Source: Tissierellia bacterium
GTDB lineage: Bacteria; Bacillota; Clostridia; Peptostreptococcales; Acidaminobacteraceae
Length of the DNA stretch: 57,982 nt
Direction: 5' to 3'
NCBI GenBank assembly: GCA_012727635.1
Contig: JAAYGQ010000066.1
Location: forward strand, 1-57,982
A program made the position numbers and the translations under genes. The notes beneath the pieces were generated by a model. It saw nothing but the letters and a program-made list of their open reading frames with translations. It did not search any database and was not told where the DNA came from. Positions 28,940 through 44,650 of the stretch are shown piece by piece. Position 1 is the first letter of the stretch, and each line of letters opens with the position of its first letter.

Positions 28940-30118
28940 TTACCCTTCTAGTAGTTTGTTTCCAGTAGCTTTAATGGCTATTGCACCCAGGGGCGCGGTA
29001 ATTATAATCGATAATACAGCCAGAGAAAGTATTAAATCTCCCGATTCCACGCCCGCTGATAGCGGAATTGCTCCAATTGCTGCTTGCACTGTGGCTTTAG
29101 GAATATAGGCAAATATACAAAATAGCTTTTCTCTCATCTTTAGATTGGTTCCTACTAGAGATAATAATACCCCTATACTTCTCGCAATTAGACCGATAAA
29201 AATTAAGAATACTCCTTTTAAACCTGCATCAAGAGCCAAAACTACATTTACTTGAGCTCCCACTAAGACAAATAGTAATATTTCTGCAAATACCCAGACT
29301 TTATCAAACTTCGAGGCAATTCTCCTTCCTACTTTAGGCATCTTTTCATAGATTATAAATCCTATAGCCATTACACCTAGAAGTCCTGCTATATCAATTT
29401 TTGATTTTATCATTGTTTCGAAACTTGTTAATAAAATTGCTGAACCCAGTATATAAAGAGTTTTCTCTGTATCTCTTATATCATAGCTTTTAAATATTTT
29501 AATTAGTACTATGCCTATTATACCTCCAGATACAACGCCTAGAACAATAGACAAGGGTATACTAAATATTGTTGCTCCTATATTGACACGTCCCCCACCA
29601 TACATTCCCATAAATGCAGAAAATATAGTGATAGCAAATACATCATCAATGGAGGCTCCGGCCAAAATTAAAGTGGGTATGTTCTTTTCTTTTCCGATCC
29701 CTTTTTCCATAAAATCGAGCATTGAAGGCACTATTACCGCTGGAGATACAGCGGCTATTATGAATCCCAATATTCCACCCTGTATAAAGGAAAAAGCAAA
29801 AAACTTCATCGATACATAGGCAATGGTAAAACCTTCGAACAATCCTGGAATAAAACTCAAATTAATCGCTGGTCTACCTACTTTTCTAAGATCTTCTCTT
29901 TTTATTCCAAGGCCAGCCCTTAGAAGAATAACGATTAAAGCAATTTTTCTAAAACCTTCCGATGCAATTAAAATTTCATCACTAAGCAAGTTAAATCCAT
30001 AGGGTCCAATTAAAACTCCGGCTAATATCATTCCCAGTAGACCGGGAACCTTAAATCTATTAAATAGTTTTTTCGAGAAAAGTCCAAATAATGTGATAAT
30101 TGCTAAACTGGTTGCCAT
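28940..30118 (-). CDS. Cation:proton antiporter (CPA/NhaP-KefB type), fluoride-riboswitch associated
   Basis: About 12 TM; FGLFSKKLFNRFKVPGLLGMILAGVLIGPYG; downstream of the crcB-motif RNA. Confidence 0.9.
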   Translation of the reverse strand: MATSLAIITLFGLFSKKLFNRFKVPGLLGMILAGVLIGPYGFNLLSDEILIASEGFRKIALIVILLRAGLGIKREDLRKVGRPAINLSFIPGLFEGFTIAYVSMKFFAFSFIQGGILGFIIAAVSPAVIVPSMLDFMEKGIGKEKNIPTLILAGASIDDVFAITIFSAFMGMYGGGRVNIGATIFSIPLSIVLGVVSGGIIGIVLIKIFKSYDIRDTEKTLYILGSAILLTSFETMIKSKIDIAGLLGVMAIGFIIYEKMPKVGRRIASKFDKVWVFAEILLFVLVGAQVNVVLALDAGLKGVFLIFIGLIARSIGVLLSLVGTNLKMREKLFCIFAYIPKATVQAAIGAIPLSAGVESGDLILSLAVLSIIITAPLGAIAIKATGNKLLEG

Positions 30119-30132
30119 ATATACTCCTTAAT

Positions 30133-30220
30133 TAAAATAAACTCCTACAAAAAATCATCCTTAGATGGCTTTTTGTAGGAGTCATTAGCTTTACGCGGTT
30201 AAGGTCAACCCCATGACCTA
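30133..30220 (-). promoter_or_regulatory. Fluoride riboswitch (crcB motif) with intrinsic terminator expression platform
   Basis: Minus strand GGTCATGGGGTTGACC TTAACCGCGTAAAGC TAATGACTCCTAC: P1 stem GGTCA/TGACC, loop GGGGT can pair with ACTCC (pseudoknot), invariant GCTAATGAC. CTCCTAC is also the 5' arm of terminator CTCCTACAAAAAGCCATC-TAAG-GATGATTTTTTGTAGGAG-TTTATTTT (30142-30181). Confidence 0.95.
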
Positions 30221-30443
30221 TAATACAACTATCATATCACACATTATAATATGTATTTGTATTTATTTAGAGAATATAAATACAGCACATCCTCTTGCTT
30301 AGATGAGAAATGACCAGTAAATCAATACCAGTAAAATAAAGGTATCTAGTCAATGCTGGACTAGACCAAATTAAGGATAGAATCTGAATACTGGCCTCTA
30401 TGAGTAGGTCCAGAGACATATAATGATCCCAAATTGCTAATGA

Positions 30444-31055
30444 CTACTTTGATATACTTTGTTTTGTCGCGCTTTTATAGCATTCTGGACTGTGATTGTT
30501 CATTACGCCTATGGCCTCTAGATAAGAATAGGTGGTTACACTTCCCATAAACTTAAAGCCGCGTTTTTTCAAGTCCTTGGATACTCTGTCGGAGAGTTCG
30601 TCCTTGGTCTTGGTGCCATCACCGTAAAGGATTTTCCCCTTAGTAAAGGACCAAATATAATTACTGAAACTTCCGAATTCCTCCTGTACTTTTATAAAAC
30701 TAGCGGCGTTACTGATTGTCGCTCTTATCTTTCCTTGATGCCTGACAATGCTTTTATCCTTTAGGAGTTCTTCAATCTTATTTTCACTGTAGTCTTTTAT
30801 CCTATAGGGGTCAAAGTCATCAAAGGCAAGCCGAAATGCTTCTCTCTTATTTAGTATAAGAAGCCAGGACAGTCCGCAGTGAAAGGATTCTAGGACAATC
30901 ATCTCGAATAGGTGTTTATCATCATAGGAGGCTAGGGCCCACTCATTATCATGATAATGGATATAGTTTTCATGTTTTTCCAAATTTGCCCAAGGGCAGC
31001 GCTTTATTTTGTCCTCTTGTTTTTCCTTCAGACTATTCATGTTCTTGATTTTCAT
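30444..31055 (-). CDS. tag: DNA-3-methyladenine glycosylase I
   Basis: RCPWANLEKHENYIHYHDNEWALASYDDKHLFEMIVLESFHCGLSWLLILNKREAFR. Confidence 0.95.
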   Translation of the reverse strand: MKIKNMNSLKEKQEDKIKRCPWANLEKHENYIHYHDNEWALASYDDKHLFEMIVLESFHCGLSWLLILNKREAFRLAFDDFDPYRIKDYSENKIEELLKDKSIVRHQGKIRATISNAASFIKVQEEFGSFSNYIWSFTKGKILYGDGTKTKDELSDRVSKDLKKRGFKFMGSVTTYSYLEAIGVMNNHSPECYKSATKQSISK

Positions 31056-33292: not shown

Positions 33293-34399
33293 TTATTGTT
33301 TTTCTAGTGCTTTTAATAAAGCATCAACATACTCTTGTCCTATAGCTTCGCCTATTGATTTATAGACTCCTTCAGCTTTGGCCAATACTTCATCGATAAA
33401 ACTTGGTTCAAATTCAATCAATTCCATACCACCATCGACGAGTTTTTGTCTGTTGTCGTCATTAATTTTGGCCAGGTCGGCTTCGATTTCTACGGCTGCT
33501 TCATCTACAGCTTTTTGAAGTACTTCTTGATACATTGGGTCTAAGCTGTCAAATTTCTCCGCGTTTATCAAGAACTGATTACAATATAAGATATGATGGG
33601 TCATTATAAGGTAATCTTGCACTTCTTGGAAATTTGCCCCAACATTTGTGTCCGTTGCATTTTCTTGTGCATCTACTAGACCTTGTTGCAATGATACATA
33701 AACTTCAGGCCATGGAAGTGGGGTGGGGGAAGCGCCTAGCGCTTTCCAAAACGCCATATGGTTTGGATTCTCCATGGTTCTAATTTTCAGTCCGTTGAAA
33801 TCATCAATGGTCTCTATGTTCTTGTTAGAGGTGGTTTCACGGTAGGTGCCGCCTTGAAGGTAATGTAAGACATACATGTTTTTAGCTTTGTAAGCTTCGT
33901 TTATCATCTCTGTAAATTCGCTATTATTTAGTGCATAATCAATCGTTTCGGCATCATATTTTGCAAATACCATAGGAAGGTCAAAAATTGCCACTTCGGG
34001 AACAAAGGATACTGTTTGCGCCGTCTGAGCTATAACAAAGTCAATATCTCCTGCTAACATTTGTCCTTGAAGCTCTTGATCGTTTCCTAACTGGCTGTTG
34101 GGAAAATAATCAATGGTTAATTGGCCATCGGTCATTTCCTCTACTTTTTTTGCTATTAATTGGCCATAGAGTTGTGCTGCAGCTCCGACTCCTGCATTAT
34201 CAGCACCAATTAGCTTAACGGGATCCAAAGCTGCAAATCCCTCTGCTGGTTCTTCTACTGCAGGTGCTTCTACTGCTGGGGTTTCTGCTGCTGGGGCTTC
34301 TGCTACTGGGGCTTCCGGGGCTTCGACTACAGGTTTAGAACAAGCAACTACTGAAAGTGTCATCCCAATAATCAATAATAAAATTAGTAACTTCTTCAC
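33293..34399 (-). CDS. TRAP transporter substrate-binding protein DctP
   Basis: Lipobox SVVACS; FNGLKIRTMENPNHMAFWKALGASPTPLPWPEVYVSLQQGLVDAQEN. Confidence 0.93.
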   Translation of the reverse strand: MKKLLILLLIIGMTLSVVACSKPVVEAPEAPVAEAPAAETPAVEAPAVEEPAEGFAALDPVKLIGADNAGVGAAAQLYGQLIAKKVEEMTDGQLTIDYFPNSQLGNDQELQGQMLAGDIDFVIAQTAQTVSFVPEVAIFDLPMVFAKYDAETIDYALNNSEFTEMINEAYKAKNMYVLHYLQGGTYRETTSNKNIETIDDFNGLKIRTMENPNHMAFWKALGASPTPLPWPEVYVSLQQGLVDAQENATDTNVGANFQEVQDYLIMTHHILYCNQFLINAEKFDSLDPMYQEVLQKAVDEAAVEIEADLAKINDDNRQKLVDGGMELIEFEPSFIDEVLAKAEGVYKSIGEAIGQEYVDALLKALEKQ

Positions 34400-34444
34400 T
34401 TTATTCCTCCTCTTTCTTTTTTGTCTATCACTTAAATTCCTGTA

Positions 34445-35728
34445 TTACAGGAATGCAAGGCTGAGCCATGGAATATAGGTTATTATAAACAATGCTACTC
34501 CAAATGCTAGAATAAAAGGCATTGCTTTTTTTGCTACATTCATAGGTGGAGTATCGCTTAGGGTTCCGGCCACAAATAGATCCAATCCAAATGGTGGGGT
34601 TGCAAGACCTATGGAGAGACAACATACCATAATAACTCCAAAATGCACTGGGTCAACTCCTAAAGATCGTACAGCAGGTAGAAGTATTGGAGATAATATT
34701 ACGATTGCGGGGCCTGTATCCATAACCATTCCCAGTAGGATGAAAATCACTACTATTCCGGTTAGAACAGAGAAGCTTGATGTGAAATTATCAAGTATAA
34801 AGTTCTCGATTAAGATCGGTGCCTTTGCTAGAGCTAGAACACGACCAAAGGCTATAGCGAATGCCAGCACAAAACATAGGGGTGCGTAGGTCTTAACTGC
34901 CTTTGCTAAAAATGGGATTATGCTTTTAGCTGTAAAGGACTTATAAATCACCATAGAAACAAATAATGAATAAAAAACAGATATCACTGCTGCTTCGGTT
35001 GGTGTTACAAGGCCTGAGTATATACCCCCAAGAACGATAACCGGGGAAAGCAAAGCCCAAAAACTTTCTTTTAGCAAAAATAGAAAACCATTGCTCCTTA
35101 ATTCCTTCATTTTCTTGTTTATTTTTTCTTTATCTTCGCCTTTTTTTATGCAATATACTACGGCATATATCATCATGGAGAGTCCAATGAGTATACCTGG
35201 TAATATTCCACCAAGAAAAAGCGCTCCTGTAGATACCCCCGTTGCCAATGAATACAATACAAAAGGAATGGAGGGGGGTATTATTACTCCAAGTCCTCCG
35301 GCCGTCGCTACCATACCAGCAGACCATGTCTTGTCATAACCCATCTCAACTAGAAAGGGAATCGTCATGGAGCCAACTGCGGCTGTAGTTGCAGGGCCTG
35401 ATCCGGAAATAGCACCATAGAAAAGACATGTGAGTATAACAGCACAGGGGATTCCACCGGGTAAATTTCCAACAAAGTATGCAAAGAAGTTAAACAATCT
35501 CCGAGAGATTCCCCCTTCAGCCATTAAAACTCCTCCGAGTATAAACAACGGAACGGCTAGTATCGGGGTTGTGTCTGAACCTGAAAAACTATTGGCGATA
35601 AGTTGCTGTATAGAGCTTCCGGTTCCTCCTAATAACAAAGGCATAAGAGAACCAATCACCATGCTCATGGTAATGGGAATCGCAAAACCCAATGCAACGA
35701 TAAAAGCTAAAAATATCCACAGTGCCAT
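34445..35728 (-). CDS. TRAP transporter large permease DctM
   Basis: FYGAISGSGPATTAAVGSMTIPFLVEMGYDK, GVIIPPSIPFVLY, TPPFGLDLFV. Confidence 0.95.
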   Translation of the reverse strand: MALWIFLAFIVALGFAIPITMSMVIGSLMPLLLGGTGSSIQQLIANSFSGSDTTPILAVPLFILGGVLMAEGGISRRLFNFFAYFVGNLPGGIPCAVILTCLFYGAISGSGPATTAAVGSMTIPFLVEMGYDKTWSAGMVATAGGLGVIIPPSIPFVLYSLATGVSTGALFLGGILPGILIGLSMMIYAVVYCIKKGEDKEKINKKMKELRSNGFLFLLKESFWALLSPVIVLGGIYSGLVTPTEAAVISVFYSLFVSMVIYKSFTAKSIIPFLAKAVKTYAPLCFVLAFAIAFGRVLALAKAPILIENFILDNFTSSFSVLTGIVVIFILLGMVMDTGPAIVILSPILLPAVRSLGVDPVHFGVIMVCCLSIGLATPPFGLDLFVAGTLSDTPPMNVAKKAMPFILAFGVALFIITYIPWLSLAFL

Positions 35729-36336
35729 TATTCATCACCCCCTAAAATGTCAGACTTGCCAACAAGGGGACCTGTAGTAGACTTTACTTCCTCTTTTGCT
35801 TCCTTCAATGTCGATTCCATTGTGGTTTCTGCTTGGATATTGAAATTCTTGAAATTCTTGAATATTTCTTCTGCCATTCTTAACGCTCCCAATCCAAAGC
35901 CCACTATGGTAGATATATACATAATCCACATGGGTATTTGCATAGCCGGAGATGATTGCCCTGTTATTCGTATTTTATTCGTATAAATAACAGAATAATA
36001 AAATAGAACTCCAAATAGACCTAAGATAATAAGGTTGGTCAGAATTTCAATGGTTTTCCTCATTTTATGAGGCAGTAAATCCATTAATAAACCAACTCTT
36101 AACATATTTCCTTTTTTTATGGTGTAACCCAGGGAAAGAAATACCGTCCATATGTAGCAATATCTTGAAAATTCTTCTGGCCAGCTCATAGATGAAAAAA
36201 AAGTTCTAGCAATAACTTGTGTCATCATGACGGTTGAAATCATTGCCAATAGTATAATCAAAATGCTTTCTTCGAAATGTTCATCTAGCCATTTAATCAC
36301 TGACACTTTTGCCTCCTTTCTTACTTTGAAAAGCAA
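35728..36336 (-). CDS. TRAP transporter small permease DctQ
   Basis: WPEEFSRYCYIWTVFLSLGYTIKKGNMLRVGLLMDLLP. Confidence 0.92.
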   Translation of the reverse strand: MLFKVRKEAKVSVIKWLDEHFEESILIILLAMISTVMMTQVIARTFFSSMSWPEEFSRYCYIWTVFLSLGYTIKKGNMLRVGLLMDLLPHKMRKTIEILTNLIILGLFGVLFYYSVIYTNKIRITGQSSPAMQIPMWIMYISTIVGFGLGALRMAEEIFKNFKNFNIQAETTMESTLKEAKEEVKSTTGPLVGKSDILGGDE

Positions 36337-36352
36337 AGTACCACATCAACGA

Positions 36353-37231
36353 CTATACTTCCTCTTTATGCGAAAGAATATCAAATAGCTCTTGCCTCAT
36401 TGCTTCTATGGGTGCAGGTTTTCCACTCCAAAGTTCAATTTGTTCAGCTCCTTGATACAAAGACATCCCTAATCCGTTTAGCACCTTGCAGCCCATTTGC
36501 TCGGCTTCTATAAGAAACCTTGTTTTGCTGGGATTGTAAATAGCATCAAAACATAATTGTCCTTGCTTTAAGTATTCTTTGTCAATGGGTGTCTCATCGA
36601 CCGATGAAGGCATTCCTAACCCAGTATTATTCATCACAACGTCTGATTGTGCCAATTTTTCTTTTAGCCTCTTAGTATCACTTAGGTCTACTATCTCTGC
36701 TATAGGGCTGAAATTTTGATTTATATCATGAACCAGTTGCTCTACTTTAGACAGAGTTCTACTTCCAATATATATCTTCTTCGCTCCGTTGTATGCCAAT
36801 ACACTGCAGATGGCTCGGGCTGATCCTCCTGCCCCTAGGCAGAAAAATGTGGCTTCCGAAAGATTCAAATCAGGAGCTTCCTCCTTTAGCGATCTGTAAA
36901 AACCAAGACCATCGGTATTATAAGCTATCAGTTTCCCCTCTTTAATAACTACAGTATTGCTCGCCTGCATTTTTTCGCAAAGAGGATCTATTTCGTCCAC
37001 ATATTTTAATACTTCCACTTTATTTGGTTTTGTTACAGCAAAACCAGCAAAATTCATATGGCGCAAGCCATTAATCACATCACCTAAGTAATCATTTTCT
37101 ACTTCAGTATAAAAATAAAGCATATCGGATCCCATGGCTCTATAGGCTGCATTTTGCATACGAGCCGCATAGGATTGGGATAACGGCTTCCCTAGAAGGG
37201 TAATCATTTTTGTATTGATATTTACAGGCAT
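36353..37231 (-). CDS. AroE-like shikimate/quinate dehydrogenase family protein
   Basis: GKPLSQSYAARMQNAAYRAMG, FAVTKPNKVEVLKYVDE, NTDGLGFYRSL, LGAGGSARAICSVLAYNGAK. Confidence 0.85.
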   Translation of the reverse strand: MPVNINTKMITLLGKPLSQSYAARMQNAAYRAMGSDMLYFYTEVENDYLGDVINGLRHMNFAGFAVTKPNKVEVLKYVDEIDPLCEKMQASNTVVIKEGKLIAYNTDGLGFYRSLKEEAPDLNLSEATFFCLGAGGSARAICSVLAYNGAKKIYIGSRTLSKVEQLVHDINQNFSPIAEIVDLSDTKRLKEKLAQSDVVMNNTGLGMPSSVDETPIDKEYLKQGQLCFDAIYNPSKTRFLIEAEQMGCKVLNGLGMSLYQGAEQIELWSGKPAPIEAMRQELFDILSHKEEV

Positions 37232-37275
37232 TCCTTTTCCCCCTTATTATTAAATCTTCTTATAAATATTCTACC

Positions 37276-38097
37276 TTATTCTATGCCATTTTCTTTGAAA
37301 TATTCTTTTGCACTTCGCAGGCACTCGGCTGCGTGGCCATAGGCTCCTCGTTTTTGGAACTCTGTTGAGTTGGGAAGCTCTATAGAAATCGCATTTGGTG
37401 GCATAGCTAGAAGCATACCTTTAAGATCTATCCCTCCTTTTCCAGGATACAGTCTACCTTCTCTTGCAACCCCAATCATGCTCGAGTCCTCAAGGGAAGG
37501 AATTGCTGCGGGCCCATCGCATAGATGAATAAACCCAAATTTATTTCTATCTATCTTTGATAAGTCATCTACAGTAACATTGGATCTGTGAGCATGTAAA
37601 GTGTCTACCATAATAAAGGCATTGGGCCGCTTTATAGCATCTAAGATCTCTAAGGATTCCTTCAAGTCCGTCACCCCGGCAAAAGTAACAAATTCAAGAT
37701 TTACTTTTAAGGAATATTTGGCTGCCATATCACAAATTTTTGCGAATTCTTCCAGTATATACTCTTTGTCTTTGGTCCAAATACTTGAAAGAACGTCTGT
37801 AGCACCTAATTCTGCCGCTGCTGCGAAAGCAGATTCGTAATCAGCCACATTTAAATCTTCTCTCACTCTTGCCAGTTCTATGTCCATAAGCTTTATATTG
37901 TTATCCAATAAAGCTTTTTTTATTTCTTTAAACAAAACCGGATCTTTATCAAATTGGAATAAAGGCTCATTCGGCAAATGCATAGGTATTGGTCTTAAAC
38001 TAACAAAATCATACCCTGCATCTGCTGCTATTTTTATTTGATCCACGGGACTTGTCCCAGGAATAGTAAGATAAGCCAATGAGAATTTTCTAGCCAT
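37276..38097 (-). CDS. Sugar phosphate isomerase/epimerase-like TIM barrel (AP endonuclease family 2 fold)
   Basis: IKIAADAGYDFVSLRP, NLEFVTFAGVTDLKESLEIL, DTLHAHRSN, HLCDGPA, YPGKGGIDLKGML. Confidence 0.85.
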   Translation of the reverse strand: MARKFSLAYLTIPGTSPVDQIKIAADAGYDFVSLRPIPMHLPNEPLFQFDKDPVLFKEIKKALLDNNIKLMDIELARVREDLNVADYESAFAAAAELGATDVLSSIWTKDKEYILEEFAKICDMAAKYSLKVNLEFVTFAGVTDLKESLEILDAIKRPNAFIMVDTLHAHRSNVTVDDLSKIDRNKFGFIHLCDGPAAIPSLEDSSMIGVAREGRLYPGKGGIDLKGMLLAMPPNAISIELPNSTEFQKRGAYGHAAECLRSAKEYFKENGIE

Positions 38098-38295
38098 ATT
38101 AATCTCCTTCTAACAAAAAATATTTATTTGTTTCAAAATGGTGTGGAGTTAAGTTATATCCTGTTACTTATCTTGCACTCTAGCAAAATTATCATATCTT
38201 TTAGCGGCGTATAAATATGTATGAAGTCATAACTGTCTTTTCGATAGAAGAGGAACATACAGGTCGGGGATTACTCCCAACCTGTATGTCGTTAC

Positions 38296-39387
38296 TTAAT
38301 TCTTGCTTTTTTCTAAAGCTTCCATAAAGGTGTTAACGACGTCATCACCTAAATCAGTTTTCAACATCTCCTTAACAACATCGGCTTTTTCTTTTAGTTT
38401 ACTTATTTCTTCTTCAGAAAAATCAATTGCCTCAAGTCCAGCGTCAACCAAACCCTTTAGATTTGTAGTGCTACTATCAGCCATTAATCCAGCGGCATAT
38501 TCTTTAGCTTCTAGTGCTACTTCATCAAACATTTTTTTATAGTCATCTGGCATACTCTCATACAATGCCTCGTTTACCAGAAATAGGTTCGGATATATTA
38601 TATGGTGAGTATTGATAATATACTTTTGCACTTCTGCGAACTTCGCTGCCAGGGCCGTATCATATGGGTTTTCCTGAGCATCGACTAATCCTTGCTGTAG
38701 AGACAAATACAACTCTCCAAAAGCTAAAGGTGTGGGGCTTGCTCCTACATTTTTCCAAAAAGCTATGTGATACTTGTTCTCTAAAGTTCTGATTTTTAAT
38801 CCTTTAAATTCTTCGATATTTCTTACTTCTTTGCTTGATGTAGTTTCTCTAAATGTAGCGGCTTGAGCAAAGGACATTCGTTTGTAACCTGCCTCTTTAA
38901 AAGCTTTATCTAAAATCTTTGTATATTCGCTGTTGTTTAACACCTCATCAATCTCTTCTTTAGTGTATCCGTAAAAGGCGTAGGGTAAATCTAACATAGC
39001 CAGTTCGGGAATGATTGATACCGCCGGTGCTGGTTGGAAGACCATGGCTGAAATATCTCCGGACTTTAAGCTTTGGAGCATCTCTCCGTAGGTTCCCAGT
39101 TGAGAGCCAGCATATACATCAGCTGTTATTTTCCCCCCGGATTTTTCTTCTATTAATTCCTTAAATTTAATACAATATAAATCTCCGATTGATCCCTCAG
39201 CTGCACCGTGGCCCATAATATAATTAAAACTTGGGCCTTCGGCAACAGGTGGTGTGGTTGCTTCACTCGTCGTTGGTTCCGGCGCACTGGCAGGAGGAGT
39301 TGGTTCGCTGGAAGTTGCAGCGCCTCCGCTACAGGCTGTAAGTACTAACGATAAAACAAGAATTGATATTAAAATCAGTTTTTTCAT
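38296..39387 (-). CDS. TRAP transporter substrate-binding protein DctP (second copy)
   Basis: Lipobox SLVLTACSGG; FKGLKIRTLENKYHIAFWKNVGASPTPLAFGELYLSLQQGLVDAQENP; start at 39387 with GGAGAG. Confidence 0.93.
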   Translation of the reverse strand: MKKLILISILVLSLVLTACSGGAATSSEPTPPASAPEPTTSEATTPPVAEGPSFNYIMGHGAAEGSIGDLYCIKFKELIEEKSGGKITADVYAGSQLGTYGEMLQSLKSGDISAMVFQPAPAVSIIPELAMLDLPYAFYGYTKEEIDEVLNNSEYTKILDKAFKEAGYKRMSFAQAATFRETTSSKEVRNIEEFKGLKIRTLENKYHIAFWKNVGASPTPLAFGELYLSLQQGLVDAQENPYDTALAAKFAEVQKYIINTHHIIYPNLFLVNEALYESMPDDYKKMFDEVALEAKEYAAGLMADSSTTNLKGLVDAGLEAIDFSEEEISKLKEKADVVKEMLKTDLGDDVVNTFMEALEKSKN

Positions 39388-39443
39388 CTTTTCTCTCCTT
39401 TTCATTTACAATATTATACTTTAAAGTTTATCTCTAAATAGTT

Positions 39444-40730
39444 TTATAATAAGATTAAACTTATTGCTGGAATAAAAGTTATTAAGAGTAGAGCAATGGT
39501 ATAAACCGCAATCAGTGGCATGGCTTTTCTACCTACTTTGAGTACTGGCGTTTCTATTAAAGGTGCCGTAACAAAAAGGTTTAATCCAAAGGGTGGTGTG
39601 ACTAAACCAATGGCCAAACAACAAACCATAATTACTCCAAAATGCACTAAATTAATATTGAAAGCCTCCAATGTTGGAACTAAGATTGGAGCCATAATTA
39701 CTATCGCAGGGCCGGTATCCATAACCATTCCAAGTAAAAAGAAAAACACTACGATTATTAATAAAAATGGTACAGCTGATGAAAATGTGTTTGCAAACAT
39801 AAGCGATATCATTTGTGGAGCTCTTAATAATGCCAGTACTCTTCCAAATGCAGTGGCAATGGCTAAAATGAAAATTAGTGGTGCATAACCTCTAACCGAA
39901 GAAATTACAATATCCCATATTTTGTTGAATTCAATCGTTTTATATACAAATAAACTTATTATCAATGAATAAAAGACTGAAATACAAGCTGCTTCTGTAG
40001 GTGTGAAATAACCTGAATATATTCCTCCTAGAATGATTAATGGGGATAGGAGTGCCCAAAAACTATCTTTTAGAAGTCGCACCAGCCCCAGTGATCTCAA
40101 TGCATCATAATTCTTTTGTATCTTTTCCTTATCTTCGCCATTTTTTTTACAATAATAATAGGTGTAAAATATAAGGACCGATCCTATCAGTATTCCAGGA
40201 AGGACACCAGCGATGAATAAATTTCCAACCGACGTACTAGTAGATGTTCCGTACAGAACAAAGGGTATACTAGGCGGGATTATTACACCTAAACTGCCAG
40301 CTGTAGCTATTAACGCTGCACAAAATACTTTATCATAGCCCAATTCAATTAATATTGGCAGTGTCATACCTCCTACTGCCGCCGCCGTCGCTGGGCCAGA
40401 ACCGGATATTGCTCCATAAAACAAACAGGTTAGAACTGCCGCTGATGGCATTCCTGCTGTTCTATTTCCTATAAAATAGGCTACTACATTGAATATTTTC
40501 TTCGAAATACCGCCTCTGGCCATCAAAACTCCTGCCAGTATGAATAACGGTACAGCTATAATGGGTGTGCTATCAGCTCCTCCAAAAAGGGCTCTTATCA
40601 CCGCTTCGTTTGATGTGGATCCAACGGCACCCATAAGTTTTGGCCAAAATGTTGCGATACCTATTCCAGTTACAATTGGAAGGCCAATCATAAGGCAAAT
40701 TCCAAAAATCAAAAACACTATACCCGCCAT
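39444..40730 (-). CDS. TRAP transporter large permease DctM (second copy)
   Basis: FYGAISGSGPATAAAVGGMTLPILIELGYDK, GVIIPPSIPFVLYG. Confidence 0.95.
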   Translation of the reverse strand: MAGIVFLIFGICLMIGLPIVTGIGIATFWPKLMGAVGSTSNEAVIRALFGGADSTPIIAVPLFILAGVLMARGGISKKIFNVVAYFIGNRTAGMPSAAVLTCLFYGAISGSGPATAAAVGGMTLPILIELGYDKVFCAALIATAGSLGVIIPPSIPFVLYGTSTSTSVGNLFIAGVLPGILIGSVLIFYTYYYCKKNGEDKEKIQKNYDALRSLGLVRLLKDSFWALLSPLIILGGIYSGYFTPTEAACISVFYSLIISLFVYKTIEFNKIWDIVISSVRGYAPLIFILAIATAFGRVLALLRAPQMISLMFANTFSSAVPFLLIIVVFFFLLGMVMDTGPAIVIMAPILVPTLEAFNINLVHFGVIMVCCLAIGLVTPPFGLNLFVTAPLIETPVLKVGRKAMPLIAVYTIALLLITFIPAISLILL

Positions 40731-40743
40731 GCTGCCCCTCCTT

Positions 40744-41247
40744 TTATTGTGTTTGTAAAAAATCTTCTTTTTCTATTGAAGACTCTCCGGTGGAAATCAA
40801 ATAAATTTGTTGAGCGCACCTTATTGTCGTAAGAATAAACCCAAGGGGAATTATAAGATACACTAAAAACATCGGTATCTCCATCGCTGGAGAACTCTGT
40901 GTACTCATCCTTATTCCTCTTACGGTCAAAATTGAGTAATAGCTCATAAAGGAGAAGAATACTATATTTATTAATTGTAGTGTAATCTCTACTATCTTTT
41001 GTATTGTTCTGGGCAGATTATGAACCAATAAATCTACCCTAAGAATAATCCCTTTTTTTATTGTAAAAGATATACTCAAAAATACCGACCACAAATAAAA
41101 ATATCTGCACAGTTCTTCTGCCCAAACAAGGGATTCCCCTATTAGCCTCATGAATATTTGTAGCAACATGACACAAGATATTCCAATTAGCAAAGAGCCC
41201 ATTAAATATTCTTCAAAATGCTCGTCAAGCGATTTTATAATTTTCAT
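40744..41247 (-). CDS. TRAP transporter small permease DctQ (second copy)
   Basis: LVWAEELCRYFYLWSVFLSISFTIKKGIILRVDLLVHNLP. Confidence 0.92.
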   Translation of the reverse strand: MKIIKSLDEHFEEYLMGSLLIGISCVMLLQIFMRLIGESLVWAEELCRYFYLWSVFLSISFTIKKGIILRVDLLVHNLPRTIQKIVEITLQLINIVFFSFMSYYSILTVRGIRMSTQSSPAMEIPMFLVYLIIPLGFILTTIRCAQQIYLISTGESSIEKEDFLQTQ

Positions 41248-41344
41248 ATATCACCACACTTAATATTTGTATCAATGGAATACCATTTCATCTTTTCCAA
41301 CATAGTATTCCGTTGACACATGTTATATACACTTTTCTTGGTAA

Positions 41345-43162
41345 TTATTTGTGTGATCCAGAGTGATCCGGAGCTATATATTCGCCATCTTTATTCTTTA
41401 GCACTTTACCGAAGGCAACATTCTCTTTTGGATTATAAATGTCATTTATATTCCAGCATCCCGGCGTGGGTACTCCAATGTTTTCCATGGGCACATCAAG
41501 TAGGAAGGGTTTGTTGCTTTTTATCGCTTCTTCTAAAGCAGGTCTAAAAGCTTCTGCTGAATCAATTTTTATTGAATCCACTCCATAGGCTTGGGCAACT
41601 TTAGCCCAATCCGGGGAATAGGGTTCACCATCGGGGGTTGTAAAAACTGTACCGAATTTGGTCTTGTAATTTGCATAGGTTAAACCTGCAATGGTTCCAA
41701 AGGCTGAATTGTTCATTACTATCCAAATTACAGGAATGTTTTGCTCAACGGCCGTTGCTAAAGTCGATGGGTTTATCCCAAACCCGCCGTCACCCACTAA
41801 AGTAAGTACCACTTTGTCTGGTGCTGCTAGTTTCCCACCAATTAGGGCCGATGCTCCAAAACCCATGGTAGCCAGACCCGAGCTGTGATGAATCGTTCCT
41901 GGAATAGTCACATCAAACTGCTGGGCCACACCATTCTTATTCCAACCTACATCAGTGTATATCAGTGAATTTTCAGGAATAGCCTCTTTTACATCCTTTA
42001 AGATTCTTTGAGGAGTCATGGGAAAACGGCTATCTTCAGAGATTGCGATATTTGAATTTTTAAAGAGTTCTTTATTTTCTTTGATTCTTTCCTTCAATTC
42101 TGGCTTGCTCTTTCCTTGAGGGCAAATTTTCTTGGCTTCCTCTAGAATTTGTACAAGAGCTTCCTTCAAATCTGCAATAGCCCCTATGCTAACAGGATAA
42201 TTTCGCCCGATTTCCGTTGGGTCAATGTCAATTTGCATGAATTCACTTTTATTCATGTCAAAAGTAACACCGGGATACCAACTTGAACTGTCGGCTTCTG
42301 CAAATCTAGTACCAAGTCCAAGTATTACATCGGCGTTTGCTGTGAATTTATGGGTAAATTCCATACCCCAGAAGCCGGTTTGACCTAACATTAGAGGATG
42401 AGTATCAGAGATACACCCCTGACCCATTAAAGTTCTTGAAACCGGTATATCTAAAAATTCAACCAAGGCTTGAAGTTCCTTGGAAGCGTCAGCTAACAAA
42501 ATTCCGCCGCCGGCATGAATTATAGGATTTTTTGCGTTGATCAGTTTTTCCGCGATGACTTTTGCCGCCGATGGGGCTAAGGCAGGTTTAATGGTTGTGT
42601 GTGAGTCTAAGTAGGTTCTCCTAAAAAGATCCTCCTCAATCTCTACAGAGAAAACATCCATTGGGACGGAAATCAGAACCGGTCCAGGCCTACCACTTTC
42701 TGCAAGCCTAAAGGCCTTATCCAGAATATCAGGGAGCGCCTCAGGATCATCGATTCTCCATGCTCGTTTGACTATTGGTTTTAGAATTTCATATTGCGAA
42801 GCGTCGCTGTGAAGGTTCACTTCTTGGTGGGGGTGCTTTCCATAATAATAACGAGGCACATCACCAGCAATAACAACCATAGGAATAGAGTCAAAGGATG
42901 CATTGGCCACGCCGGTCACTGTATTTGCAAGACCGGGTCCAAGGTGGGATAGTACGACCCCTGCTTTCTTTTTAACCCTTGCATAGCCATCGGCTGCCAT
43001 AGCAGCCAACTGTTCATTTCTAAAGGAAATAAATTCTATTTTTTCGCTTTTTGATAATTCATCTAAAAACGCAATGACAGTATGTCCACAAAGGCCAAAT
43101 ATATACTCCACTTCGCGTCTTTCAAGATAATCTACCATCAATTCGGATACTAGTTTTTTCAA
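41345..43162 (-). CDS. Thiamine-diphosphate-dependent enzyme (acetolactate synthase / carboligase / decarboxylase superfamily), specificity unknown
   Basis: ISFRNEQLAAMAADGYAR (catalytic Glu), GPGLANTVTGVANASFDSIPMVVIAGD, GDGGFGINPSTLATAVEQNIPVIWIVMNNSAFG (ThDP GDG...NN motif). Confidence 0.9.
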   Translation of the reverse strand: MKKLVSELMVDYLERREVEYIFGLCGHTVIAFLDELSKSEKIEFISFRNEQLAAMAADGYARVKKKAGVVLSHLGPGLANTVTGVANASFDSIPMVVIAGDVPRYYYGKHPHQEVNLHSDASQYEILKPIVKRAWRIDDPEALPDILDKAFRLAESGRPGPVLISVPMDVFSVEIEEDLFRRTYLDSHTTIKPALAPSAAKVIAEKLINAKNPIIHAGGGILLADASKELQALVEFLDIPVSRTLMGQGCISDTHPLMLGQTGFWGMEFTHKFTANADVILGLGTRFAEADSSSWYPGVTFDMNKSEFMQIDIDPTEIGRNYPVSIGAIADLKEALVQILEEAKKICPQGKSKPELKERIKENKELFKNSNIAISEDSRFPMTPQRILKDVKEAIPENSLIYTDVGWNKNGVAQQFDVTIPGTIHHSSGLATMGFGASALIGGKLAAPDKVVLTLVGDGGFGINPSTLATAVEQNIPVIWIVMNNSAFGTIAGLTYANYKTKFGTVFTTPDGEPYSPDWAKVAQAYGVDSIKIDSAEAFRPALEEAIKSNKPFLLDVPMENIGVPTPGCWNINDIYNPKENVAFGKVLKNKDGEYIAPDHSGSHK

Positions 43163-43177
43163 GGTTTTTCCTCCTAA

Positions 43178-44650
43178 TTATGCTTTATTCTCTCTCTTTG
43201 GGTCGTAAAATTCACCAAATAATTCTTCGTCCGATGGCCTATCCTCAGCTATCTCTTTGGAGACCCAGGTAACATTCATGTAATGGTGAAGATGAACGTT
43301 TTCTGATGTTGCGTTGCCTCCCCATGTCCCACAACCTATGCTGGATGTCATAGGCATTCCATTTGTAAAGGATCCGGCATTTGCTTTTGACTGGGGTTGT
43401 CTTACCATGATTCGCCCTACGTTGGCTTCTAGAGCTAGCCTGTGGATATGATCTTCATTATTTGAATAAATCCCTACGCTGTGTCCCTTACCACCGACTG
43501 CATGTATTGCCATAATTATATCTATAGCCTTTTGGAACTCTCCTTCATATTTATGTACTGCAAGCAGAGTCGATAGTTTTTCCCGGCACCAAACGTCATC
43601 GTAATCTTGTGTAAATGAGCCGGTACCCTTTGCAATTAAGAACTTTCTATCTTCTGGTATTGAAAAACCTGCAAGTTCTGCCATCCTCTGGGGAGACTGA
43701 GCCACGGAGTCCGGTAGTCTATGACAACTTTCATCCCACATTATTTTTTTAATGGATTCTTGTTCTTCTTCATTTAATAAGTATCCGCCCACTTGAACCA
43801 GTTCTTTTACAGCATCATCGTAGATGCTTGCTTGGATTACGATATTTCCATCGGCCGAACACCCTGAACCAAAGTCCGATGTCTTGGAGAGCATGGTATT
43901 GTAGGCAGCTTGGTGAAGCTCGTCTTTGGCAGATTCATCCCAAATCATTGTCGCATTGCCGGCACCTACTCCATAGGCTGGAGTTCCTGAGTGATAGGCT
44001 CTTCTCACAACCCCTTGGCCACCCGTTGCGATAACCAGGTCACACTTGGTATTGAGTGCCTCGGACAAAGCTTTGTTTACTTTGGCTTTTCCCTGTCCAA
44101 GGATTTGTATAAGGTCTTCCGGTGCCCCCACTTCTCTGAGGCCTTCCCTCATCAGTTCGATGGTCTTCCCACCGGTTTTTACCGATCGTGGGTGGGGAGA
44201 GAAGATGATTGCGTTTCTTGCTTTAAGTGCATATATGGCATTTCCTGCCGGGGTTAAATCGGGGTTAGTGGCGGGAACCACACAGGCTATTACCCCTACG
44301 GGTTTTCCATATTTTACGATGCCCTTTTCTGGGATTTCTTCAATGATTCCAACACTTTTTTGACGCAGTGCGTCTCTTAGAACCCCTCGGATTTTGAACT
44401 TCTTATTTTCCCTGCTAACAAAATCCCCCATTTTACTTTCTTCGATACTCATTTTTACCAGTTCTTTAAAGGTCTGGGTATTTGCAACCTTCCACGCAAT
44501 GGCCTGGATTGTGCGATCGATGTCCTCCTGAGTCCACTTCTCAAAAATCTTCTGCGCTGCATCGGCCCGTGCAAATTTTTCTTCGATTTCATCTATTTGG
44601 TCTTGAGTAAGTTTTGAATAAACTTCCTCCATAGAACTCATCCTGCTCAT
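43178..44650 (-). CDS. CoA-acylating aldehyde dehydrogenase superfamily (possibly sulfoacetaldehyde/succinate-semialdehyde type)
   Basis: PVGVIACVVPATNPDLTPAGNAIYALKARNAIIFSPHPR, GAGNATMIWDESA, catalytic Cys in SDFGSGCSADGNIVI. Confidence 0.85.
   Translation of the reverse strand: MSRMSSMEEVYSKLTQDQIDEIEEKFARADAAQKIFEKWTQEDIDRTIQAIAWKVANTQTFKELVKMSIEESKMGDFVSRENKKFKIRGVLRDALRQKSVGIIEEIPEKGIVKYGKPVGVIACVVPATNPDLTPAGNAIYALKARNAIIFSPHPRSVKTGGKTIELMREGLREVGAPEDLIQILGQGKAKVNKALSEALNTKCDLVIATGGQGVVRRAYHSGTPAYGVGAGNATMIWDESAKDELHQAAYNTMLSKTSDFGSGCSADGNIVIQASIYDDAVKELVQVGGYLLNEEEQESIKKIMWDESCHRLPDSVAQSPQRMAELAGFSIPEDRKFLIAKGTGSFTQDYDDVWCREKLSTLLAVHKYEGEFQKAIDIIMAIHAVGGKGHSVGIYSNNEDHIHRLALEANVGRIMVRQPQSKANAGSFTNGMPMTSSIGCGTWGGNATSENVHLHHYMNVTWVSKEIAEDRPSDEELFGEFYDPKRENKA

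Follow-up and report, generated by a model that had tools for sequence, protein, structure and literature searches.

An NHA2-like cation:proton antiporter behind a fluoride riboswitch, a candidate stand-alone fluoride defence in bacteria

The window, i.e., the whole 57,982-nt stretch of DNA analyzed here, carries on its minus strand a fluoride riboswitch aptamer of the crcB motif (30169-30227), an intrinsic terminator (30134-30183), a ribosome-binding site, AAGGAG, lying 5 nt ahead of the ATG (30124-30129), and the gene of a 392-aa NHA2-like cation:proton antiporter (28940-30118). The upstream gene encodes a DNA-3-methyladenine glycosylase (30444-31055), and a terminator-like hairpin behind it (30344-30366, minus strand, consensus scan only) suggests that the riboswitch transcript may be separate from the glycosylase gene. 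Scanning of the minus strand revealed no consensus sigma-70 promoter for the leader at the scan threshold. Elsewhere in the window, positions 33293-44650 (minus strand) hold a catabolic cluster encoding two TRAP solute-binding proteins, a TIM-barrel isomerase-like protein, a TPP enzyme and an aldehyde dehydrogenase, which resembles inositol catabolism and gives no indication of a connection with fluoride.

Comparison with Rfam matched the minus strand from 30227 to 30169 (UGUAUUAUAGGUCAUGGGGUUGACCUUAACCGCGUAAAGCUAAUGACUCCUACAAAAAG) to RF01734 with 52.1 bits, well over the cut-off of 34 (E 1.4e-11 over the window), spanning all 64/64 model positions (1-64); this aptamer is the sole gathering-level RNA match within the 58-kb window. 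The original prediction had placed such a riboswitch at 30133-30220, and the RNA is indeed there and above threshold, with an aptamer that runs slightly beyond 30220. Direct reading also recovered the proposed P1 stem and the GGGGU/ACUCC pseudoknot with its one G-U pair. P1 is formed by GGUC (30218-30215) and GACC (30206-30203) and closes the loop AUGGGGUU, within which the 5' pseudoknot strand GGGGUU (30207-30212, minus strand) pairs with GACUCC (30178-30183, minus strand), the 3' strand, which aptamer and terminator share. This pairing, GGGGU(U) at 30212-30207 with (G)ACUCC at 30183-30178, comprises six pairs when the terminal U-G is counted, and the G-U lies among the inner five. Score and coverage, P1 together with the pseudoknot, and a competing expression platform place the RNA in the RF01734 class. 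A chance match is excluded by the score and by repeated occurrence of the aptamer ahead of related genes, and the window RNA is almost certainly a fluoride riboswitch.

Alignment of 57 related aptamers revealed that each of the six pseudoknot positions is paired in 56-57 of them, with covariation at positions 1, 2, 4 and 5. The G-U at position 4 recurs in 11 of the 57, which makes it a natural variant, and the terminal U-G wobble at position 1 is kept in 40. Position 1 of the 6-bp pseudoknot holds a wobble that is critical for switching in the Bacillus cereus system (PMC11077080), to which the terminal U-G found here is equivalent. The transcriptional crcB riboswitch of B. cereus (PMC11077080, PMC8752731) likewise combines a pseudoknotted aptamer carrying this wobble with a terminator that draws on the 3' pseudoknot strand as well. 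Unlike its B. cereus counterpart, the window RNA lies ahead of an NHA2-like antiporter gene rather than crcB, and it has the extra G-U at position 4 and a shorter middle hairpin, of only ~2 bp.

The minimum-energy fold of the leader contains a 15-bp plus 4-bp hairpin (30183-30140) followed by UAUUUU, which ends just upstream of the antiporter start. Its 5' arm is the aptamer strand GACUCCUAC, i.e., the 3' pseudoknot strand, and the folding energy of the leader is −37.2 kcal/mol vs −24.4 ± 3.6 for shuffled sequences (z −3.6), so that the predicted terminator sharing this strand proved real. We found a strong hairpin with a U-rich tract behind it in 48 of 51 antiporter leaders, and in most of the 51 the terminator-like hairpin begins within the same pseudoknot strand, a base overlap that supports the mutual exclusion of aptamer and terminator proposed at the outset. 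Because pseudoknot and terminator use the same bases, fluoride binding and termination would compete, and the leader would act as a transcriptional ON switch, in line with the established mechanism of this RNA class. Without fluoride, the terminator would capture the ACUCCUAC strand and transcription would stop; with fluoride bound, the pseudoknot would retain the ACUCCUAC strand and the antiporter would presumably be made.

The antiporter matches PF00999 (Na_H_Exchanger) with 149.5 bits (E 1.5e-43), and no other domain was found in the protein. Its nearest solved structures are those of NHA2/SLC9B2 (7b4l, 7p1i, 9qub; about 32% identity), retrieved at E ~1e-44, and a profile built from 11 relatives confirmed NHA2 as the closest relative. 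An NhaP identity was set aside, since NhaP structures are far more distant (E ~2e-7 vs ~1e-44); the Na+/H+ or K+/H+ antiporter of the original prediction thus stands as a member of the cation:proton antiporter family, here refined to an NHA2/SLC9B2-like protein. The AF2 model (mean pLDDT 81.7) superimposes on human NHA2 with a TM score of 0.83. Residues E95, D158, D159 and R313 align with E215, D278, D279 and R432 of NHA2, ion-site residues as named in PMC12072577, and are conserved at 98-100% among 148 relatives, from which the cation/proton machinery appears intact. The electroneutral animal-NHA-like clade is marked by a DD motif at positions 6-7, an Arg at position 8 and a TM3 Glu (PMC6181914), and the protein has all of these marks in a Na_H_Exchanger domain with NHA2 as nearest neighbor. 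By sequence, the antiporter is hence a member of a compact NHA2/SLC9B-like family of animal-NHA-like CPA2 proteins that probably exchanges Na+ (or K+/Li+) for H+ electroneutrally, as predicted from the motif residues only. With NHA2/SLC9B2 it shares the fold and the E-DD-R ion-site residues, whereas NHA2 comes from animals, has an additional N-terminal helix and is not known as fluoride-linked. The window protein is neither a Fluc, as the CRCB domain (PF02537) is absent from it, nor a CLC-F, as it has PF00999 only and lacks the Voltage_CLC domain (GNNLI/GMGLI, GREGT/V, GEVTP).

In the whole genome we found one RF01734 site, with the antiporter gene directly behind it. RF01734 occurs in 13 of the 41 genomes of the window's own family, where antiporters make up most of the downstream genes, the exceptions being two CitMHS/ArsB-like permeases and two apparent antiporter remnants. 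In a class sample of 392 genomes, in which family membership was set at E at most 1e-40, we located 67 antiporter-family sites, of which 51 are directly preceded by an aptamer, at 28-158 nt from where the match begins. Of the other 16 upstream regions, one yielded a sub-threshold match (19.9 bits) and the remainder, including one truncated at a contig end, no match, leaving about a quarter of the family members in this sample without a riboswitch. The aptamer also precedes the gene at 50 of 79 named antiporter loci from more than ten phyla. In a tree of 148 sequences (FastTree, no outgroup), the 107 riboswitch-linked members, which here include the 19.9-bit locus (L079, below the cut-off and labeled riboswitch-bearing in the tree only), are scattered throughout, with 24 changes of state. 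No recurrent neighbor gene or operon partner emerged across the 79 loci, which excludes crcB, or any other gene, as a regular operon partner and indicates that the switch typically has the antiporter as its only gene.

Two loci (L002 and L014, the latter at G033:C32:97200-97369) carry two complete fluoride aptamers in tandem ahead of one antiporter gene, about 40 nt apart and each followed by a terminator-like hairpin. At L012 and L015, from different genera, an apparent antiporter C-terminal end lies immediately behind the aptamer, as if the gene had been mostly deleted, although these remnants could be assembly or binning artifacts. The permeases that replace the antiporter behind the riboswitch in two own-family genomes (L011:1595-2896, L016:1626-2912) have a possible role in fluoride transport. 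In several lineages, a fluoride riboswitch is directly followed by the gene of a dynamin-like GTPase (L117:20-2024, minus strand; L200; L204; L209; and, as second gene, L205); PF00350 was found in the GTPases of L117 and L204, and an enolase gene adjoins in L200 and L205. The literature searched contained no paper linking dynamin-like proteins to fluoride riboswitches. At L196, L199 and L202, riboswitches precede genes, frequently two consecutive ones, whose large products look MutS-related by eye; crcB RNAs ahead of DNA repair genes had been reported before (PMC2864571).

We then set the distribution of Fluc against that of the antiporter. The antiporter is encoded by 63 genomes of the class sample and CRCB, above cut-off, by 75; only one genome has both, i.e., 1/63 antiporter genomes vs 74/329 others (one-sided Fisher p 7.9e-6; ~12 joint genomes expected). 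The antiporter of that sole joint genome, G413, is one of three divergent ones. Shuffling within families, which covered the 168 CLC-bearing genomes with complete family labels, gave 5.75 expected joint genomes vs the one observed (p 0.0027), a modest control at p 0.003. The depletion reappeared in a further phylum sample drawn from other classes, from which five listed genomes already in the class sample were left out: CRCB was detected in 0/15 antiporter genomes vs 87/170 others (p 4.2e-5). No CRCB was found in any of eight riboswitch-bearing genomes of the window's own family (0/8), nor in the window's genome, which is 92% complete in 250 contigs, so that an exporter gene could be missing from it. 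Being correlative, the exclusion could also stem from habitat or lineage. Antiporter and Fluc are both missing from most genomes of the class, and many bacteria lack the antiporter, Fluc and CLC-F altogether.

No CLC (PF00654) was found in the window's 92% complete genome. As antiporter genomes commonly carry CLC genes, we screened these for the three CLC-F signatures described in PMC11139923. Four riboswitch-linked CLCs, serving as positives, carry GREGT, GNNLI and GEVTP. Among the CLC matches listed, with G103 and G296 left out of the reading, only those of G271 and G412 show the CLC-F pattern, the latter with GNNII replacing GNNLI. The remaining listed CLCs mostly have GREGP (chloride type), GREGA or other variants; that of G388 has GREGV and that of G351 has GNNLI, each without the other two signatures. 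The CLCs were thus rejected as hidden fluoride exporters except in G271 and G412, and most antiporter genomes appear to show no recognized fluoride exporter among the CLC matches listed.

How a cation antiporter may defend against fluoride can be sketched from weak-acid physiology, according to which HF enters the cell and dissociates in the less acidic cytoplasm, and the equilibrium F- ratio tracks the pH difference across the membrane. By bringing H+ in and cation out, the antiporter would lower this pH difference; F- would then be re-protonated and leave as HF by passive permeation. Together, cation/H+ exchange and HF permeation would amount to net NaF or KF export with no F- channel involved, which would explain how a single cation antiporter might substitute for Fluc. 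H+-in/cation-out exchange would be the usual thermodynamic direction of such a protein, and relief of acidification would require an inward Na+ gradient. We regard HF-coupled cation/H+ exchange as a tentative mechanism, with somewhat less than an even chance of being the right one. That the antiporter is a stand-alone fluoride defence replacing Fluc or CLC-F is, from the comparative data, the reading we moderately favor. The whole proposal, in which an ON switch and an NHA2-like antiporter form a single-gene defence acting by HF-coupled cation exchange, is in our judgment evenly poised between right and wrong. A role of the antiporter in fluoride resistance or in pH/ion homeostasis under fluoride had been put forward in the original prediction, and the sole-site link, the solitary gene and the near-exclusion of Fluc strengthen it.

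The 2024 review (PMC11139923) reads such antiporters as accessory to pH homeostasis. Applied here, the antiporter would offset HF-caused acidification and loss of proton-motive force, and fluoride itself would be removed by another, unrecognized route or not at all. Na+/H+ antiporters indeed rank next after exporters among riboswitch-linked genes, which is ascribed to pH homeostasis (PMC11139923), C. difficile has a CLC and an antiporter listed jointly behind one fluoride riboswitch (PMC11477304), antiporter and CLC-F are both present in G271 and G412, and the cation/H+ site is intact. An accessory antiporter would nonetheless be expected alongside exporters, whereas Fluc is strongly depleted and CLC-F rare among the CLC matches listed, and the inward Na+ gradient would have to be large enough to reverse the exchanger; we consider this explanation somewhat unlikely. 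The exclusion of Fluc might alternatively reflect ecology or descent, if lineages with the antiporter favored niches suited to Na+/H+ exchange and happened to lack Fluc. Judged by record titles, many antiporter carriers are anaerobes of sediment or saline places, both genes are patchy, and the majority of class genomes are devoid of either, but the exclusion persists within families and in the further sample of other classes, and a fluoride sensor is present in most antiporter-family members, which makes this explanation unlikely.

Direct transport of fluoride by the antiporter, as F-/H+ or cation-F- co-transport, would turn it into a true exporter with an NhaA fold. Its genetic position is that of Fluc and CLC-F, Fluc is nearly excluded, and CLC-F proteins were themselves initially annotated as chloride transporters (PMC7266159). 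Every NHA2 cation/H+ core residue is conserved, however, and no anion-selectivity residue was identified in the antiporter, which renders direct transport improbable. Nor are we aware of any CPA2 protein with the NhaA fold that transports anions. Loss of switching through degeneration of the riboswitch, which the G-U at pseudoknot position 4 and the ~2-bp middle hairpin might suggest, is highly improbable given the score far over the cut-off, the natural occurrence of that G-U, the retained position-1 wobble, and the intact terminator and ORF.

The RNA class and its link to Na+/H+ antiporters are already known, and what we add is comparative. Fluoride riboswitches upstream of CPA-type Na+/H+ antiporters were described by Baker et al. 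2012, as cited in PMC11139923, in the same arrangement as here and usually read as pH homeostasis; beyond that work, the antiporter is assigned here to the animal-NHA-like CPA2 clade and found to be nearly exclusive of Fluc. The literature searched, with the 2012 primary papers outside it, contained no report placing these antiporters in the NHA clade or describing Fluc exclusion. Fluc/CrcB, the usual stand-alone fluoride defence, is likewise often under a fluoride riboswitch but is an unrelated small dual-topology F- channel, nearly exclusive of the antiporter. CLC-F F-/H+ antiporters, also often under a fluoride riboswitch, are proton-coupled like the window protein and present where Fluc may be absent, but they belong to an unrelated family and fold and move F- itself. 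Riboswitch-linked NHA-type antiporters, related to animal NHA2 and present in many phyla, may thus constitute a third kind of stand-alone bacterial fluoride-defence transporter that takes the place of Fluc or CLC-F, a proposal to which we give an equal chance of holding or failing.

Counts of riboswitch-linked Na+/H+ antiporters go back to 2012, and pH housekeeping has been the explanation given for them. Should the exclusion of Fluc prove functional, many anaerobes would defend themselves against fluoride without a recognized fluoride exporter. Organofluorine biodegradation would then gain a fluoride-tolerance part, and the antiporters would point to a family of fluoride-defence proteins with kinship to the NHA exchangers of animals.
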